Origin: a virus | DNA: 43,193 bases | Direction: 5' to 3' (one strand) | Virus record (IMG/VR): IMGVR_UViG_3300036785_000738 | Coordinates: 1-43,193 of that record | Part shown: positions 1 through 43,193 of the stretch, one piece after another | Position numbering within the stretch: the stretch's first letter is position 1 | Layout of the letters: every line of letters starts with the position of its first letter | The notes under the pieces: model-generated | What the model was told of the DNA's origin: nothing | The model's input: the letters and a program-made list of their open reading frames with translations, nothing else | Databases searched by the model: none | Translations under genes and position numbers: made by a program

Positions 1-178
1 CGGGATACGAATTAGCAGGGTTCCATCCATGTCGGTTGTATCGGCATGGATGACTGGGGCGACGCAACCGAGGACGGTGGCGGGGACGGTCTGAGAGCTT
101 TCCACTCAGGTTGTTTCCCCCTAGTCCAGGGGTCCCCCGCAGAAAGCAGAAATGTGCCATAATTGCACAACCGTTGGT
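1..178. repeat. Left copy of 178-bp terminal direct repeat
   Basis: Positions 1-178 match 43016-43193 except at position 128 (a) versus 43143 (c). The contig therefore closes on itself at about 43,015 bp. The first 127 nt match exactly, a length that equals a common assembler k-mer, so this is more likely an assembly overlap of a circular or circularly permuted genome than a true virion terminus. The mismatch would then be a population variant or an error. The repeat is part of the structured gene-free region described at the right end. Confidence 0.95.
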
Positions 179-202: not shown

Positions 203-1702
203 ATGCTCAAGGAACTCCACCAACATCAAGTAGAAGGCCTAGAGAGGCTCAAGGCCTCTGTCCGCACTGGTCACAGGCGGCCCATCCTGGCGATGCCGAC
301 CGGATCAGGCAAAACGGTGCTAGCGGCTCACGTCATCACCGGCGCCAGGGGCAAACAGAACCGGGTCGCATTCACGGTCCCTCTTCTTTCCCTGGTCAAT
401 CAGACTTTCGAGAAGTTCGTCGAGAACGGCATTGCGCCGGCGGACATGGGCGTGGTTCAGGGCGACCATCCGTGGCACCGGCCGGCCGCGCCGATTCAGA
501 TTTGTTCGGTTCAGACCCTCGCCAGGCGGCAACTCCCAGAGGTAGCCGTCGTGGTCGTAGATGAAGCGCATATCGGATACAAAGTCCTTGACGAGTGGAT
601 GGACGCCGAGCCGAAGAAGGTGTTCATTGGCTTAAGCGCGACGCCGTGGCGCAAAGGCATGGCGGAACGCTGGGACGACCTGATTCAGCCGACCTCGATA
701 AAGCAGCTGATTGATGAAGGTCAGCTGTGCAAGTTTCGCACTTTCGCGCCGTCGCATCCTGACTTGACCGGCATCAAGAAGGTCGCTGGCGATTTTCACG
801 AGGGCCAGCTCTCCGAGCGCATGGGAGAGCGCAAGCTCATCGCGGATGTCGTCGGGACATGGCTCGATAATGGGCGAGGCAGGCCGACGCTGGTCTTCGC
901 GGTCGATTGCGCCCACGCGGCGAAACTTCACGCTGAGTTTGAACAGCAAGGCGTGAAGAGCGCGTATGTGGACGCCCTCGTCGGTCGCGAAGACCGCAGC
1001 GACATCGTCGAGCGGCTCGAGGCGCGCGAGCTTGAGGTCATCTGTTCGGTGGGCACGATGACGACTGGGTCGGACATTCCGTGCGTCTCCTGCATCAGCT
1101 ATGTGCGTCCGACCTATAGCGAGATGCTGTTTGTGCAAAGCATCGGGCGCGGCCTGCGCGTTTGCCCCAGCAAAGAAGACCTAATCGTTTTCGACCACAG
1201 TGATACGACACTGCGTCTCGGTCTGGTCGACACCATCCATCACGAGGGATTGCTCGACGGCGAGGGCGCGTCGACCGCGGAGCGCGAGGTGAGCCCCATC
1301 AAGCCGAAAGAGTGCCTGCAGTGTCACGTGCTCATTCCCTTGCGCGCGCGGCGCTGCCCGGCGTGCGGCTGCATGCTGGTCGAGCCGTCGATGATTGAGA
1401 ACGCGCCGGGCGAGCTCGTCGAGATGCTCAGCGGCGAGAAGGCGGCGCACAAGGCGAATCGCGAGTGGTCAAAAGAGGCGAAAGCGCTCTTCTTCGGCGA
1501 GCTACAGCACTACGGCCGGTCGCGCGGATACAAAGAGGGCTGGGCGGCGATGAAATATCGCGAGCGCTTCAGCGTCTGGCCCAATGACCCATTCATCCGC
1601 AATGCGCGCGTCTATGAGCCAAGCATGGCGACGCTCAGTTGGATAAAAAAAAGTCAACGCATATGGGCCGAATCGCAAGCAAAGGAAAAGCAGCATGCAT
1701 GA
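203..1702 (+). CDS. DEAD/DEAH-box superfamily II helicase
   Basis: Predicted ATP-dependent DNA helicase of the type III restriction/UvrB-like SF2 group, cytoplasmic, likely used in phage genome replication or recombination. Seen in the 499-aa product: Walker A PTGSGKT at residues 32-38, DEAH at 120-123, SAT motif III at 145-147, and QSIGRGLR motif VI near residue 312. A CxxC...CxxC zinc-ribbon-like cluster follows at about 370-392, then a charged C-terminal tail. The ATG at 203 gives a full N-terminal helicase domain starting directly with the Q-motif-like region. The gene overlaps the primase gene by 8 nt, so the two are probably translated together. Family assignment is firm; the exact substrate is inferred. 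Confidence 0.93.
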   Translation: MLKELHQHQVEGLERLKASVRTGHRRPILAMPTGSGKTVLAAHVITGARGKQNRVAFTVPLLSLVNQTFEKFVENGIAPADMGVVQGDHPWHRPAAPIQICSVQTLARRQLPEVAVVVVDEAHIGYKVLDEWMDAEPKKVFIGLSATPWRKGMAERWDDLIQPTSIKQLIDEGQLCKFRTFAPSHPDLTGIKKVAGDFHEGQLSERMGERKLIADVVGTWLDNGRGRPTLVFAVDCAHAAKLHAEFEQQGVKSAYVDALVGREDRSDIVERLEARELEVICSVGTMTTGSDIPCVSCISYVRPTYSEMLFVQSIGRGLRVCPSKEDLIVFDHSDTTLRLGLVDTIHHEGLLDGEGASTAEREVSPIKPKECLQCHVLIPLRARRCPACGCMLVEPSMIENAPGELVEMLSGEKAAHKANREWSKEAKALFFGELQHYGRSRGYKEGWAAMKYRERFSVWPNDPFIRNARVYEPSMATLSWIKKSQRIWAESQAKEKQHA

Positions 1703-7441: not shown

Positions 7442-8021
7442 TACCATTCGCTTGATTTTTGCACGATTTCTGCTAGGCTCGAGCGTTCCCCAAAAACCCA
7501 GACTGCAGTTCGCGCCGAGCTCGAGCCCGCCAGGCCAACATCTCTCATACACAACTAACATAAACGGCTTAGCACGCCACTCCAAACCACACCAAACCAT
7601 GGCCGCACATAACCTAGCGCTCACAGCACTCGTCAATGCCGCTGAAATGCCGGGTCCACGCCTTTCCAGACCGCGCTCCATAGGGTTTCTGGCAATGCTT
7701 TCCAGCGCTACATCAATGGGTTAGGATGCGCATTGCTTCAGCGGTGCGCATTTGCGCCGGAGCTTCAGCAGATGAATACCTATCAGATGGTCGTATCAGC
7801 TAATGCATTGATATCATTGCGTTCGTGGCTTGAGCTCCAGCTATAGGGTAGCGTATGGGTAATGCATTGACACGATGCGCCACGTCGTCGTCACGCCATG
7901 GCGCGAGCATTATCAATAGGTTAGCGCCGTCGACCACCCTACTTTTCTGGCGCTGAAATCGTTTGACCCCCCCACCGTTGCCACGGTCACTGAACCGGGC
8001 CCGGGGGTCCCAAAGACATGT

Positions 8022-8041
8022 GTCTCACGCAAAGGTGAGAC
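8022..8041. terminator. Hairpin GTCTCAC-N6-GTGAGAC
   Basis: A perfect 7-bp inverted repeat with a 6-nt loop (gcaaag). No T-tract follows on either strand, so it may be a protein-binding site or RNA structure instead of a terminator. Confidence 0.4.
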
Positions 8042-8049
8042 CGAAAATA

Positions 8050-8088
8050 CCGGACTGAAAATAATACTTGTCCTGCCGGACTGAAAAT
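8050..8088. repeat. Direct repeat CCGGACTGAAAAT, two copies
   Basis: Identical 13-mers at 8050-8062 and 8076-8088, start-to-start distance 26 nt, in the gene-free region upstream of the rightward operon. The spacing is close to 2.5 helical turns. Possibly an iteron-like or activator-binding site. Confidence 0.6.
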
Positions 8089-8139
8089 GCCATGAATTGT
8101 TGTCCGAATATAAGTCCTATTACGGTCCGAGTACTACAG

Positions 8140-8202
8140 GTGGTCGATGTGTTGAAGGATGGGCGGGGGTTTGTGGCGCATGATGCGAAGGCGGGGAGGT
8201 GA
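8140..8202 (+). CDS. Possible 20-aa peptide
   Basis: A GTG-started frame reading VVDVLKDGRGFVAHDAKAGR. Its residue composition looks protein-like, but length and lack of a clear ribosome binding site make it doubtful. It may be a leader peptide or a remnant of an older gene. Confidence 0.2.
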   Translation: MVDVLKDGRGFVAHDAKAGR

Positions 8203-8233
8203 GGACGAGAAAAAGCCATTTCCTGAGGCGGAT

Positions 8234-8425
8234 ATGTCGGGTGAGGTCCGCCAAGGTGCGCCAGGTCCGCCAATATCCGCCAAGGAAGGTTCGACGCCTA
8301 GGCGGGGCCGTGGACGGCCGAGGGTTGAGGGGGAGCGTCCTTGGGAGAAGGAGGGGATTTCGAAGAGCGTGTGGTATGCGCGTCGTGCTCGGGCGCGGGG
8401 AGGGGAGGGGAGGGGAGGGGAATGA
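8234..8425 (+). CDS. Small basic protein with AT-hook-like and WEKEGIS motif (63 aa)
   Basis: Starts MSGEVRQGAPGPPISAKEGS, then an AT-hook-like RRGRGRPR, then PWEKEGISKSVWYARR near the C-terminus. The last motif looks like the recognition part of a homeodomain-like helix-turn-helix and recurs in the genes at 9185 and 9715. Together these suggest a small DNA-binding protein. The ATG at 8234 has GAGG five nt upstream; the frame is open back to an ATG at 8159, which would give 88 aa. The stop overlaps the next ATG (ATGA). Confidence 0.5.
   Translation: MSGEVRQGAPGPPISAKEGSTPRRGRGRPRVEGERPWEKEGISKSVWYARRARARGGEGRGGE
8397..8421 (+). repeat. (GGGGA)5 tandem repeat, potential G-quadruplex at a ribosome binding site
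   Basis: Five consecutive GGGGA units lie at the end of one gene and directly before the start codon at 8422. Four or more G4 runs with 1-nt loops is a strong G-quadruplex pattern on the coding strand. The same bases contain several GGAGGG-like Shine-Dalgarno sites, so folding could control access to the start. Confidence 0.75.
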
Positions 8426-8613
8426 TGGGTGAGGGGTTGGATGAGTTGCGGGCGTGGGTTCGGCGGGTTGGGGAGCTTGGTTTGGCTCCCGAGGAAGTCC
8501 CGAAAACGGGAAAGCAGCGGGAAGAGGTGGGTGAGAGGTTGGAGTGGCCTGGGTGGTTCAGGCGGGCGATGGAGGGGCGCAGGGACGTTATGGGGGAGGG
8601 GAGGGATGAGTGA
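8422..8613 (+). CDS. Hypothetical protein (63 aa)
   Basis: Unrecognised protein starting MMGEGLDELRAWVRRVGELG, helical and charged, with a Trp-rich centre (LEWPGWFRRAME). The start (8422 or 8425) follows the (GGGGA)5 tract. It is coupled to both neighbours by short overlaps. The coding strand is extremely G-rich and C-poor here. Confidence 0.5.
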   Translation: MMGEGLDELRAWVRRVGELGLAPEEVPKTGKQREEVGERLEWPGWFRRAMEGRRDVMGEGRDE

Positions 8614-9031
8614 GGATATTGGGGAGTATTTTTCTGGTGTTATAGAGAAGATAGATGGATTGTTAGATGGGCTAATTACGAGGGTTATTGCGGAGTTGGA
8701 GGGGGAAGGCGGCGAGGTTCGGTGGCCGATAAAGAGCGGGGATATGTTAAATGTGCGTGATGCGTATGCGACGGTGTTTGATTTATCTGATGGAGAGTTA
8801 AAGTTATCATTCTTTGATGAGACGGGGAATGAATGGACGGACATTTTGTCTGTGGTGGTTATGGGCAGTGGGGTTGATGGAGCTCCGGCTTATTATTGGA
8901 GGAGGACATTGAAGGAGATGCTGGAGGAGGAGTTGGGATTATATAGGAAGGAAGATAATTTGGATAACGATAGAGCTAGGTTGCTACAGCGGCTGATTGC
9001 GGCGTTTGAGGAGCAAGGGGCCAAAGCGTGA
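8606..9031 (+). CDS. Hypothetical acidic protein (141 aa)
   Basis: Unrecognised protein starting MSEDIGEYFSGVIEKIDGLL with an amphipathic N-terminal helix, a mixed centre (FDLSDGELKLSFFDETGNEW) and a helical C-terminus (LLQRLIAAFEEQGAKA). The ATG at 8606 overlaps the previous gene by 8 nt and has a GGGGAGGG site upstream. Codon use is AT-richer than in genes on either side (many TTA, GTT, ATT, GAT), suggesting separate ancestry. Confidence 0.6.
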   Translation: MSEDIGEYFSGVIEKIDGLLDGLITRVIAELEGEGGEVRWPIKSGDMLNVRDAYATVFDLSDGELKLSFFDETGNEWTDILSVVVMGSGVDGAPAYYWRRTLKEMLEEELGLYRKEDNLDNDRARLLQRLIAAFEEQGAKA

Positions 9032-10155: not shown

Positions 10156-10478
10156 AAAAATCCTTCCTCCTGGTCGTCTTACTCGCGTCGCTCACCGTGT
10201 GGTACGGAGAAGTCGAAGCAGCGCTCACCCCCGTGCATTGCCATCGCTATTCCACCTGGCTTTACCCGTGGCGGCAGATGTGCCCCTTAAGCCTCCGCCA
10301 CAGGAATCCGAGAGCCCAGATGGCGAAGCGGGCGGCCGCCGTTCCTACCCCACGGCCGCCCGCAAGCCGGGAGACGGTAATAGGGCCGTCTCCCGGCTTC
10401 GCCAGGACCCCATTCGACCTCGTCAAAGCCGCCCCAACTCCCGCCTGGGTCAAAGCCGCCAGCGAGCTGAAGCTATGA
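10152..10478 (+). CDS. Secreted small protein with HRYSTWLYPW motif (108 aa)
   Basis: Begins with a clear Sec signal peptide: MKKSF, a hydrophobic core LLVVLLASLTVW and a small-residue region ending VEA near residue 23. The mature N-terminus has CHRYSTWLYPWRQMC, with two Cys likely to form a disulfide in the periplasm. The rest is Pro/Ala/Arg-rich and probably disordered. The pattern resembles small exported proteins of Rhizobiales and their phages. The ATG at 10152 overlaps the preceding stop and gives the signal peptide at the right position; an earlier frame start would bury it. Confidence 0.6.
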   Translation: MKKSFLLVVLLASLTVWYGEVEAALTPVHCHRYSTWLYPWRQMCPLSLRHRNPRAQMAKRAAAVPTPRPPASRETVIGPSPGFARTPFDLVKAAPTPAWVKAASELKL

Positions 10479-11915: not shown

Positions 11916-12503
11916 TTGGACGAAAGAAGACAGAACCAAACACACTTGACCAACCTCACCACCGCCGAGATTGACGAAATCATCGCCGCCGCGCAGTTGG
12001 CGACGCCTGGGCCGTGGCGCTGGCGCCCGAAGCCGTATGACTTCGAGCGCGAGGCCGGCAAGATGCAGCACGCCGACGACCGGGAGCTGGCCTACAACGT
12101 GCTCGCGCTCCGCGCCGCCTACGACGCGGGCAAGCGCGACGGCATGAGCAAAGTCGTCAACTGCTCACCCGAGCGCATCATCGCGCTGGCCGAGATGGCG
12201 AAGGCTGGCGAACGGCAATATGAATACAACGTGGCTCAAATTGCTCGCGAAGCCGCACTTGAGAAGGACAATGCCGCTCTGGTCAAGCAATGCGACGAGT
12301 TGGCCGCGAGCGAGGCCCGCTATGCCTCATTGCAGAACCGGGACGAGATAATCACCGTACTAGCCGAGGCGCTAACGGTGGCGCGTCCGATAGTTATGAA
12401 GTCGAGCAATTGGAGGGCTTCTCCAATCCTCGCCAAAATCGACGCCGCCCTCGCCAAGGCAGGAACGACCTATCTAAAACACCCCGCGGAGCCGGCGTCT
12501 TAG
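11916..12503 (+). CDS. Ea22-like protein with ATPGPW motif (195 aa)
   Basis: Resembles the Ead/Ea22-like group of phage early proteins: an N-terminal TTAEIDEIIAAAQLATPGPW, then a DDRELAYNVLALRAAYDAGK region, and a coiled-coil-like C-terminus with a segment for repeated helices. The start is uncertain: TTG at 11916 or TTG at 11946 (just before TNLTTAEIDE); neither has a good ribosome binding site. The gene ends 30 nt inside the converging terminase gene. Confidence 0.6.
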   Translation: MDERRQNQTHLTNLTTAEIDEIIAAAQLATPGPWRWRPKPYDFEREAGKMQHADDRELAYNVLALRAAYDAGKRDGMSKVVNCSPERIIALAEMAKAGERQYEYNVAQIAREAALEKDNAALVKQCDELAASEARYASLQNRDEIITVLAEALTVARPIVMKSSNWRASPILAKIDAALAKAGTTYLKHPAEPAS

Positions 12504-13826
12504 CGCGCCGGGCCCGCGCATGAGACTCGAGCCGAGCCCGTTGACCATGTGGAAGCTCACCGCCGCAGTGCGATAGGCGTCGGCCCCGTGGGAGTACGGC
12601 TCCGGCCCATGAACCGGCCTGCCCATCTTGTTCCTGCGGTAGCCGCGCAGCATCATCAAGCCCTTGGCGCACTTGCGAGCGTCGAACCAGCTCGCGCCAA
12701 GTAAGCCGCGCGCCGCCGATATGCCGTCCTCGAGCGACGAAATCGGCGCCACGATTATCGGCTCGACGAGCAGTCCACCCAAGACAATCTTCCTCGATTG
12801 CCCGGTGCCGAGTTCGCGCGCCTCGACATCATGAGGCAGGCAATGCGCCTTGTAATGATAGCCGCCGCTCGTCGCCCGAAGCGTCAGTTCGCGGGCGTAG
12901 AAATCGAGCGGCTTGCCGGAATTCTGGATGTAGTCGATGAAATGCACTTCCCTCCCCGCGGTCTGATAGAGCCAGATGCAGGTGAAGTCGTGAATGCCGA
13001 GGTCCCACGCGGTGATGACCGGCTGCGACAAGTCGACCGAGACGCTTGTCACGCGATGTTGCGCGGAAATCTGATTTAGGACATCGGCGTAATAGGACCC
13101 CTCGACCGGCGCTTCGAAGCTGCACTCCATTTCCCTGGCGTATTCCTCCGGCGACATGTCCTGCGTGAGTTCGCCGGCTTCTGAATGGCTCAAGGCGTCC
13201 TCCCCGGTCTGTGACAGAGGAATAATGTAGTGGTCCCAGCGCGGATCCTCCTCGGTCTTGAGCCGCAACTGATTGAAATGGTCGTCCCCGTTCGACGTTC
13301 CTGAGACAACCGCCCAGCCGCCATAATCGGCCAGGCACGGTCTAACCACGGTTGAGAAAACGCTTGGGTTGAGGAGTGGAAATTCGTCCAAGACGATGCC
13401 ATCGAAATACATGCCCCGCATCCGCTCGTAGGCCCCGGCGCCGCCGTAGAGCTTTATCGTCGCCCTGGTCGGCAGCACGCAAGTGAGTTCGCCCTCGAGG
13501 TAACGGGTGCCGGGAATCGCCTCCGTGTATTGCTTCAGATACATCCAGACCAGGTCCTTCGCCTGTTCGAATGACGGCCCGACATAGGCGTAACGCGGCT
13601 TCGGATGCACGCGCTTGTTCGACATCGCCGCGCGGATGAGCTGATTGGCGAGAGCGACGGTCTTGCCAGCCCGCCGGTGCGCGCACACGAATTTCCAGCG
13701 CTTCTCGGAGGCGTGCAGACCTCGGAAATGCTTGCGCGGCAGGTACTGGACCTCGACTCGCGAGTCCACGGGCGCGTCGTCGATGACGCCCTCGGCGGCC
13801 AAAATTCCGTTCCAATCGACCGGCAT
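12474..13826 (-). CDS. terL: Terminase large subunit
   Basis: ATPase-nuclease motor that packages phage DNA into the prohead and cuts it. Seen in the 450-aa product: Walker A HRRAGKT at residues 50-56, Walker B IVLDEF at 144-149, coupling motif SGTSNG near 175-180, and the nuclease acidic motif AWDLGIHDFT with D275, followed by a second acidic cluster (HGADAYR) near 418-425. Length fits the family. It lies alone on the minus strand, converging on the Ea22-like gene and diverging from portal, where one would expect it to be co-directional with portal. The start at 13826 has only a weak ribosome binding site. Confidence 0.95.
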   Translation of the reverse strand: MPVDWNGILAAEGVIDDAPVDSRVEVQYLPRKHFRGLHASEKRWKFVCAHRRAGKTVALANQLIRAAMSNKRVHPKPRYAYVGPSFEQAKDLVWMYLKQYTEAIPGTRYLEGELTCVLPTRATIKLYGGAGAYERMRGMYFDGIVLDEFPLLNPSVFSTVVRPCLADYGGWAVVSGTSNGDDHFNQLRLKTEEDPRWDHYIIPLSQTGEDALSHSEAGELTQDMSPEEYAREMECSFEAPVEGSYYADVLNQISAQHRVTSVSVDLSQPVITAWDLGIHDFTCIWLYQTAGREVHFIDYIQNSGKPLDFYARELTLRATSGGYHYKAHCLPHDVEARELGTGQSRKIVLGGLLVEPIIVAPISSLEDGISAARGLLGASWFDARKCAKGLMMLRGYRRNKMGRPVHGPEPYSHGADAYRTAAVSFHMVNGLGSSLMRGPGALRRRLRGVF

Positions 13827-40914: not shown

Positions 40915-41252
40915 TGTACGTGCCTGAAGGCGCCATCCAGGCCGCCGTGCTCGAGCATTGGCTGACATTTGGCCTGCCAGGCACTCTGGTCGCCGCGGTG
41001 CCGAATGCCCACGCCCATGGCCAGTCTGGCCTTACCAAGGGCTTGTGCGACCTGGTCTGCTTCAGTCCGCTACTGGGCGAGAAAACCGGTTGGCTTGAGC
41101 TCAAGACCGAACGTGGCGCACTCTCGAAACCACAGGAAGACTTTCGGGACCTTGTTCGCTCTCTCGGCGTGCCCTGGGCTGTGGCCAACGGCCGCGATAG
41201 CCCCATTCTCCAACTTGAGCGCTGGGGGCTGGTCCGTGCGACAAGGCGCTAA
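40911..41252 (+). CDS. VRR-NUC domain nuclease (113 aa)
   Basis: Small PD-(D/E)XK nuclease of the VRR-NUC family, associated with branched DNA or Holliday-junction cleavage. Seen: AAVPNAHAHGQSGLTKGLCD (28-47) and WLELKTERGALSKPQEDF (61-78) with E63 and K65, and LGVPWAVANG. It overlaps the regulator by 4 nt and the methyltransferase by 17 nt. Confidence 0.85.
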   Translation: MMYVPEGAIQAAVLEHWLTFGLPGTLVAAVPNAHAHGQSGLTKGLCDLVCFSPLLGEKTGWLELKTERGALSKPQEDFRDLVRSLGVPWAVANGRDSPILQLERWGLVRATRR

Positions 41253-41970
41253 ACGTGGCCTTCTGCGCGACCGCAAGGATGACCTCTACGAGACGCCAGC
41301 GTGCGCGGTCCGCGCGTTACTCCAAGTCGAGGCGCTCCCGCGGGTCATCTGGGAGCCATGTGCCGGTCGTGGAGCAATCGCGCGCGAACTCATCGCGGTA
41401 GGCCACGAGGTTGTGGCGCATGACCTCGTAGCCTACCCAGGCGCGGACGTTCACATCGCGACGCGCATTGATTTTCTGATGGAACGCTCAGTCCCGCTGG
41501 GCGTGAGAGCCATTGTCACTAATCCGCCGTTCAAAAACAGTGATGCTTTCATCCGGCATGGACTCGAACTAGGCCTACGGGTCATCGTACTCTTACGCCT
41601 AATGGCGCTCGAGGGCCTTGCTCGCTCAGACCTTATCGATGAGCATCTCGTCCGGGTCTGGTCGTTCAAGGACCGTTTGCCAATGATGCATCGTGAGGGC
41701 TGGACCGGCGACCGCCAGGATAGGGGCACCACGCCATTCGCATGGTTCGTCTTTTATCCTCAACCATTGAGGGCGGCTATCGAACTCCGCCGAATTTCGT
41801 GGAAGAAAAGGAGCGACCATGAAGAAAGCCGCGCGAAAAGGGCCGCCCAAGAAACGAGACGAGCCGCCAATAACGAACCAGGACCCCAAGCCCTCACAAG
41901 ACGTGAGCAATCCGTGGAACCGGAGTTCTGGCTCATTCCTTACCACCGAGGCTCAGTGGATACGCGATAA
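41236..41970 (+). CDS. Class I DNA methyltransferase with NPPF motif (N6-adenine type)
   Basis: Likely adenine methyltransferase: DLYETPACAVRALL at the N-terminus, SAM-binding EPCAGRGAIA at 40-49 and catalytic NPPF at 96-99. ALEGLARSDLIDEH and FAWFVFYP follow. GTG start at 41236. The conserved part ends near residue 195; the last 50 residues overlap the small gene at 41819 in another frame and may be an unselected extension. Confidence 0.8.
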   Translation: MRQGAKRGLLRDRKDDLYETPACAVRALLQVEALPRVIWEPCAGRGAIARELIAVGHEVVAHDLVAYPGADVHIATRIDFLMERSVPLGVRAIVTNPPFKNSDAFIRHGLELGLRVIVLLRLMALEGLARSDLIDEHLVRVWSFKDRLPMMHREGWTGDRQDRGTTPFAWFVFYPQPLRAAIELRRISWKKRSDHEESRAKRAAQETRRAANNEPGPQALTRREQSVEPEFWLIPYHRGSVDTR

Positions 41971-41989: not shown

Positions 41990-42026
41990 TGGCCCTTGAC
42001 GCCAGCCGCGCGGTCGCTAAAACGAT

Positions 42027-42056
42027 AGACGCCGTCAGCGTAAACTGACGGCGTCT
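42027..42056 (+). terminator. Strong hairpin, likely transcription terminator
   Basis: A perfect 12-bp stem, AGACGCCGTCAG and CTGACGGCGTCT, with a 6-nt loop (cgtaaa), followed by gatagtttt. It ends the regulator/nuclease/methyltransferase operon. The T-run is short and offset by four nt. Confidence 0.75.
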
Positions 42057-42089
42057 GATAGTTTTCCTCAAACCGTCTGCGGCGGCCGA

Positions 42090-42260
42090 GTGATTAATCC
42101 CTTAAGATCCCCTGAGAAAAAAAGCAAGAGGGCGCTTCCGCGTCCTCGTGCTCCGCTTGAGCCATCCCAGCTCGCGGACGTCGCCGCGCGCCGTACGGCT
42201 TTCGCCGACGCTTTCGAGAAGGCGCGCCAGTTCCGGCGAAAGGGGAGACAGCAGAGGTGA
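42090..42260 (+). CDS. Small basic protein (56 aa)
   Basis: GTG-started frame VINPLRSPEKKSKRALPRPR, then a helical ADVAARRTAFADAFEKARQF and a basic end. The stop overlaps the next start (GTGA at 42257-42260), which supports expression. No family recognised; likely nucleic-acid binding from its charge. The ribosome binding site is weak. Confidence 0.5.
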   Translation: MINPLRSPEKKSKRALPRPRAPLEPSQLADVAARRTAFADAFEKARQFRRKGRQQR

Positions 42261-42733
42261 GCAAGTATCACCGCATCCTCGCATGGAGGGGTAAAAAAAT
42301 CAAAGCTGAGGAAGAAGACCTCCGCGGCCCCGTCACCAAAGAAGATCAAATACTCATCGACAATATGCTGGCAAAAGTAAAGGTGACAGTTTGCCCACCT
42401 GGCGAAGCCTATGGAGCGCGCGACTTGCGGCGTTGGCACGGAAATAGAGCTCCAAAAGATAGAGCCGATGACATCAAAAGATGGGAAGGCAAAACTATCA
42501 AGTCTGGTTGCCTTACCTCAGACGAAATAGAGCAAGCGCGTTCTCCTGCTGGCGGGTGGACTAGAGCCACTCTTGCTAACTGGGGCGTTCCATGGCCGCC
42601 CCCAAAGGGATGGAAATATGCCCTAGAAAATGGAAAACGCATCCCCTGCCGTAAATTATCGCCACGAACTAAACGGAAAATAACCGTGACGGTAAAGAAA
42701 GCCTATGACGGAGAAAAGCCGCCATGGGAATAG
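42257..42733 (+). CDS. Hypothetical protein with GGWTRATLANWGVPWPPPKGW motif (158 aa)
   Basis: GTG start at 42257 with a GCAGAG purine site and coupling to the previous gene. The sequence has a KEEDQILIDNMLAK-like helix, a GARDLRRWHGNRAPKDRADD region and TRATLANWGVPWPPPKGW near 101-118, a motif I associate with small proteins of Rhizobiales and their phages. The C-terminus is Lys/Arg-rich. No enzyme motif is visible. Confidence 0.6.
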   Translation: MSKYHRILAWRGKKIKAEEEDLRGPVTKEDQILIDNMLAKVKVTVCPPGEAYGARDLRRWHGNRAPKDRADDIKRWEGKTIKSGCLTSDEIEQARSPAGGWTRATLANWGVPWPPPKGWKYALENGKRIPCRKLSPRTKRKITVTVKKAYDGEKPPWE

Positions 42734-43193
42734 TATAGTCGTGCGTAACGGCAAGCAATCAGCCCGGCCATAGCGCCGATTGAGCGTATTGCGCGCCACC
42801 AGTGTAATGTACTGACTATAAGGATGGTACTACCTGCTATGTAGGGCTTCTTTCCCCCCGCGCCCACAACACTGGTATAAACGCGGGTTTCTGAGCCTCC
42901 CGTGGGGCCTGAACAGGCTATCGGGACCACCGACGGCTAAAGACGCACTGGCCTCCCAAGCCAGTGCCTAGGCGGATTGGCACCGAGAGCGAGGGGAACC
43001 TCGTACTGCACCGTTCGGGATACGAATTAGCAGGGTTCCATCCATGTCGGTTGTATCGGCATGGATGACTGGGGCGACGCAACCGAGGACGGTGGCGGGG
43101 ACGGTCTGAGAGCTTTCCACTCAGGTTGTTTCCCCCTAGTCCCGGGGTCCCCCGCAGAAAGCAGAAATGTGCCATAATTGCACAACCGTTGGT
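42734..43193 (+). ncRNA. Candidate large structured RNA (or structured packaging/origin region)
   Basis: No credible gene is seen over 460 nt (about 484 nt through the circular junction to the helicase start). Inverted repeats occur densely: TATAGTC/GACTATA (42734-42740, 42814-42820), CCCGCG/CGCGGG (42857-42862, 42882-42887), TCCCG...CGGGA enclosing GCCT-gaac-AGGC (42898-42926), CACTGGC-ctcccaa-GCCAGTG (42946-42966), GTGCC/GGCAC (42965-42983), CGAGG-ggaa-CCTCG with a GNRA loop (42990-43003) and CATCCATG/CATGGATG (43043-43071). The GNRA loop suggests the plus strand. No known RNA family is recognised. Confidence 0.45.
43016..43193. repeat. Right copy of 178-bp terminal direct repeat
   Basis: Matches positions 1-178 with a single difference (c at 43143 versus a at 128). 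It closes the contig into a circle and lies in the candidate structured RNA region. Confidence 0.95.

Follow-up and report, generated by a model that had tools for sequence, protein, structure and literature searches.

Large ornate RNAs, the antiterminator RNA of phage HK022 and the hairpins of primosome assembly or single-strand initiation are the described systems closest to a hairpin-rich, gene-free stretch of phage DNA. GOLLD and ROOL are large ornate RNAs that occur in phages and prophages; many GOLLD members are longer than 800 nt, and the two RNAs are often found near tRNA islands (PMC12286853). The put RNA of HK022 is a nascent antiterminator of early phage transcripts, whose stem-loops make RNA polymerase resistant to termination (PMC9378689). 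The analysis reported here concerns a stretch without recognisable genes in IMG/VR record IMGVR_UViG_3300036785_000738, of which positions 1–43,193 were analysed (43,193 nt; hereafter the window). The reading tentatively favoured is that this stretch serves as a lineage-specific non-coding control region before a helicase–primase operon; its cluster of hairpins may represent a structured RNA.

The stretch spans the junction of the contig. Positions 1–178 are identical to 43016–43193 except for one mismatch, A at 128 and C at 43143, so that the end repeat consists of 127 exact bases, the mismatch and 50 further bases. An exact overlap of 127 bases with a variant just beyond it is the trace expected of an assembler using 127-base words on a circular genome; this would put the genome size at about 43,015 bp and make an assembly cut the probable origin of the junction. 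The end repeat is therefore probably an assembly overlap with a population variant rather than a packaging end; the A/C difference is probably the variant that kept the assembler from closing the circle. A previous reading of the same DNA, made from the sequence alone, had placed a contig junction inside the stretch, and the end repeat confirms that it is real. The accompanying suggestion of a packaging element is unsupported, given that the terminal repeat resembles an assembly overlap and the large terminase gene lies approximately 12.5 kb away. That gene (12474–13826, minus strand) and the portal gene (13911, plus strand) are divergently oriented; terminase and portal genes are collinear in Ochrobactrum phage OH.

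When the ends are joined, the gene-free stretch measures 484 nt (42734–43015 joined to 1–202, from the ORF list and codon scores), close to the roughly 480 nt between last gene and helicase that the sequence-only reading had claimed. It has a G+C content of 0.58 and is bordered by the stop codon of the ORF at 42257–42733 (ORF158) and by the helicase ATG at 203 (Table 1). A codon log-odds score trained on large genes of the same phage gave 0.20–0.43 in most genes tested versus −0.25 to +0.09 for all frames of at least 35 aa in the stretch, a separation that is imperfect in that ORF 40969–41970 and ORF158 likewise score near zero. Six-frame translations of the stretch matched nothing in Pfam and only noise in PHROGs (E 0.14–0.27), and tblastn with its two longest reverse ORFs against 50,697 phage records gave nothing at E values up to 1. 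A protein gene that is hidden or has decayed, for which open reverse frames of 75 and 85 aa could be cited, is thus extremely improbable in view of the negative or near-zero codon scores and the empty profile and tblastn searches; these are the approaches by which a conserved protein in one of the frames, a possibility raised beforehand, was sought and none found. ORF158 itself has no match in Pfam, PHROGs or NCBIfam. Proteins that are otherwise different carry its GGWTRATLANWGVPWPPPKGW motif at 39 IMG/VR loci, and in some of them (L027, L032 and L044) the C-terminal end is HNH-like.

Table 1. Features of the gene-free stretch and its neighbours
Feature	Position	Strand	Basis or remark
Gene-free stretch	42734–43193, continuing over the junction (43016–43193 = 1–178) to base 202	.	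ORF list, codon scores, six-frame profile search, end repeat
ORF158 (158 aa), upstream of the stretch, with GGWTRATLANWGVPWPPPKGW motif	42257–42733	+	
DEAD-type helicase, first gene downstream of the stretch	203–1702	+	then primase 1695–2621
Hairpin cluster in which the folding signal peaks; closing stem of the predicted multibranch domain 42924–42932/43143–43150	42918–43150	+	fold z, pair probabilities
Hairpin, 8-bp stem, GCACTGGC-CTCCCAA-GCCAGTGC	42945–42967	+	pair probability 0.99 in both contexts
Hairpin, 6-bp stem (one G-U), GNRA loop GGAA	42989–43004	+	pair probability 0.95–0.99
Hairpin, 4 + 5 bp with internal loop, apical loop GGATA	43006–43033	+	pair probability 0.72–0.99
Hairpin, 12 bp including G-U pairs	43040–43066; second copy 25–51	+	pair probability 0.94–0.98
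Hairpin, 14 bp, many G-U pairs	43097–43133; second copy 82–118	+	pair probability 0.78–0.93
Palindrome TGTGC-CATAATT-GCACA, 17 bp, over extended −10-like TGCCATAAT	43168–43184; second copy 153–169	.	

Counts confirm the hairpins of the stretch, at a level moderately above chance expectation. Perfect hairpins with stems of at least 5 bp number 14 versus 7.2 expected (14 being reached in 11 of 500 dinucleotide shuffles), and those with stems of at least 8 bp number 2 versus 0.13 expected (2 of 500 shuffles). The initial description of dense nested hairpins is borne out as far as this excess goes, whereas long-range nested pairs occur at about their chance number, which for perfect 8-mer pairs in 484 nt is estimated at roughly 1–2. 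A pseudoknot candidate, in which the 8-bp pair 42798–42805/42869–42876 is crossed with CCCGCG/CGCGGG, was set aside because such pairs are expected by chance and this 5′ part of the stretch folds with a z score of +0.06. A group I intron P7 formed by TATAGTC/GACTATA (42734/42814) was likewise rejected, the order of the elements being wrong and no intron being matched in Rfam.

On the plus strand, the roughly 230 nt from 42918 to 43150 are predicted to form at least five local hairpins (starting at 42945, 42989, 43006, 43040 and 43097), each with a pair probability of at least 0.7 in both folding contexts tested. The GNRA tetraloop reported earlier is exact, with arms at 42989–42994 and 42999–43004; the hairpin at 42945 does have the 7-nt loop described, on a stem of 8 rather than 7 bp. 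The stem that would close these hairpins into a multibranch domain has a probability of 0.8–0.95 when the region is folded alone and 0 in the whole stretch, and one of its pairs is lost, uncompensated, through the A/C variant at 43143. In these models, closure of the domain depends on where the transcript is cut.

Compared with shuffled sequence, the 460 nt at 42734–43193 fold with z scores of −2.26 (plus strand) and −2.10 (minus strand). The excess is concentrated in 42918–43150 (233 nt; −3.17 and −2.51, respectively, as RNA), values that are flattering in that the region was picked after a sliding scan, and the 5′ part (42734–42917) shows none. Within its own genome, the folding of the stretch is unexceptional: among 182 windows of equal length, 3 equal or exceed its folding, coding windows match its values, and the spacer at 7682–8133 reached −3.03 on the plus strand versus −1.79 for the stretch in the same run (25 shuffles each). 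The proposed comparison with shuffled sequence gave a marginal result: the stretch surpasses the shuffles, yet ranks no higher than the top few percent of windows from its own genome. The best-folding of the 182 windows is one that holds a terminator at 42026–42057. Elsewhere, a 160-nt window with z scores of −5.5 on one strand and −7.1 on the other includes a pair of long GC-rich hairpins at 10330–10405, one of them with the arms GCCGGGAGACGG/CCGTCTCCCGGC; at positions 8001–9000 the GC skew is very strong (+0.49) and the top strand is rich in purines, with tandem repeats of GAGGGGAGGG.

The nearest relative among the phages searched is L001 (IMG/VR 3300036828_000556), whose helicase and primase are 73% and 74% identical to those of the window. 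The two share a block up to about 42250, including the hairpin at 42026–42057 (L001 2248–2277), which is strong, has T-rich flanks on both strands and is probably a bidirectional terminator. Its stem is kept in L001 by compensatory changes (GACGCCGTCAG..CTGACGGCGTC versus GAGGCCGCCAG..CTGGCGGCCTC); conservation of an RNA signal at this locus can therefore be recognised across these two phages. Beyond the shared block, L001 carries another small gene and another spacer, about 200–260 nt long, which shows no similarity to the gene-free stretch (alignment score 21 versus 23.6 on average for shuffled sequence) and folds without excess (z −0.41). By this comparison, L001 lacks the hairpin element.

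These results bear on two other accounts of the stretch. It could be a plain GC-rich spacer with no function beyond a promoter, whose hairpins arose by chance and were picked out by a reader seeking them. This account is a close rival of the control-region reading, although somewhat unlikely in itself; it draws on the 3 windows and the spacer that fold as well or better, the unstructured 5′ part and the missing element in L001, and it has to contend with the rarity among shuffles of so many stems of at least 8 bp and with the fact that phages seldom retain nearly 500 idle bases. The stretch could also act as DNA, its single-stranded hairpins serving replication as an origin or as a loading site for priming proteins. 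The z score of −3.60 obtained for 42918–43150 with DNA parameters, the adjoining helicase and primase genes and a cumulative GC skew minimum at the junction, on a curve driven by the odd stretch at 8–9 kb, are consistent with such a role. However, the repeats are short two-copy ones rather than tandem iterons, there is no AT-rich stretch at this G+C content, and L001 maintains the same helicase and primase behind a spacer with neither similarity nor folding excess, all of which makes a replication element quite unlikely.

Searches for RNA families and relatives extended these comparisons. Rfam covariance models gave no match to the stretch at the gathering score or at E values up to 1; at E values up to 10, the 460 nt produced one irrelevant match (E 1.7) and no group I or II intron, and neither tRNA nor tmRNA was found in the whole window. 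The Rfam search advised at the outset thus yielded no relevant family, in agreement with the initial impression that tRNA, tmRNA and intron cores are missing. Relatives of the stretch were not found by blastn in INPHARED phages or PLSDB plasmids. Exact and degenerate DNA patterns had few matches in IMG/VR and one in GTDB genomes, in Lactiplantibacillus and confined to 21 nt, all judged to be chance. IMG/VR loci were also fetched through four proteins (helicase, primase, ORF158 and major capsid protein); nucleotide comparison with these loci and with whole records gave only chance matches of about 10–40 nt, and a covariance model built from the window's own two variants recovered the window alone from 547 kb of loci and had no hit among 50 whole records. 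It is important to note that a lack of relatives in the databases searched does not prove the stretch to be unique. The capsid protein is 75–85% identical to those of many soil IMG/VR phages, and 24 of 24 contigs checked lack this helicase, which indicates that structural and replication modules differ in history.

A candidate control site lies at the downstream end of the stretch. The palindrome and the extended −10-like TGCCATAAT that it covers are likely to constitute the promoter/operator of the helicase–primase operon, and TGCTATAAA is present in the corresponding spacer of L001. A −35 element is lacking at this site, and a sigma-70 consensus scan of the stretch detected no promoter pair. 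Transcription from the operator-covered element would putatively start near base 170, about 33 nt before the helicase gene. The hairpin cluster lies upstream of this putative start and would consequently be absent from the leader made by that promoter; it would have to be transcribed by read-through from upstream or from a start without a recognised promoter.

The control-region reading is favoured by the lack of coding signal, the hairpin excess, the five hairpins that persist in both folding contexts, the operator-like palindrome over the −10-like element and the unrelated spacer of L001, as well as by a folding excess that is concentrated in the hairpin cluster and larger on the plus strand. 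If the hairpins are used, they would most likely act in a structured leader or short non-coding RNA transcribed from upstream. This reading is weakened by the missing −35 and consensus promoter, the loss of the closing stem in the full fold, the uncompensated variant at 43143 and folding that is ordinary for the genome. A more ambitious proposal is unlikely: that a new class of structured phage RNA, with a multibranch core of five hairpins before a helicase–primase operon, has its first known member in 42918–43150, perhaps extended by the 5′ part that begins at 42734. A fold of a single sequence cannot decide such cases, since coding windows and another spacer of this genome fold as well. At present, the stretch adds to the hairpin-rich spacers of phages and amounts at best to an orphan candidate RNA within a control region that is otherwise ordinary; should relatives appear, it would become a compact candidate for a new class of phage RNA beside replication genes.

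With respect to the known systems, the hairpins adjoin helicase and primase genes, as would suit primosome assembly or single-strand initiation hairpins, but they contain no recognised motif of that kind and the operon of L001 does without the element. The stem-loops near an early operon and their possible action in cis recall HK022 put; unlike put, the stretch is much larger and lies upstream, not downstream, of its only promoter-like site. Identity with GOLLD or ROOL is excluded by the Rfam covariance models, and the stretch differs from both in having no Rfam match and no tRNA in the window, tRNA neighbours being frequent though not obligatory there. It nevertheless resembles these RNAs in being phage-encoded, non-coding, rich in hairpins and several hundred nucleotides long.
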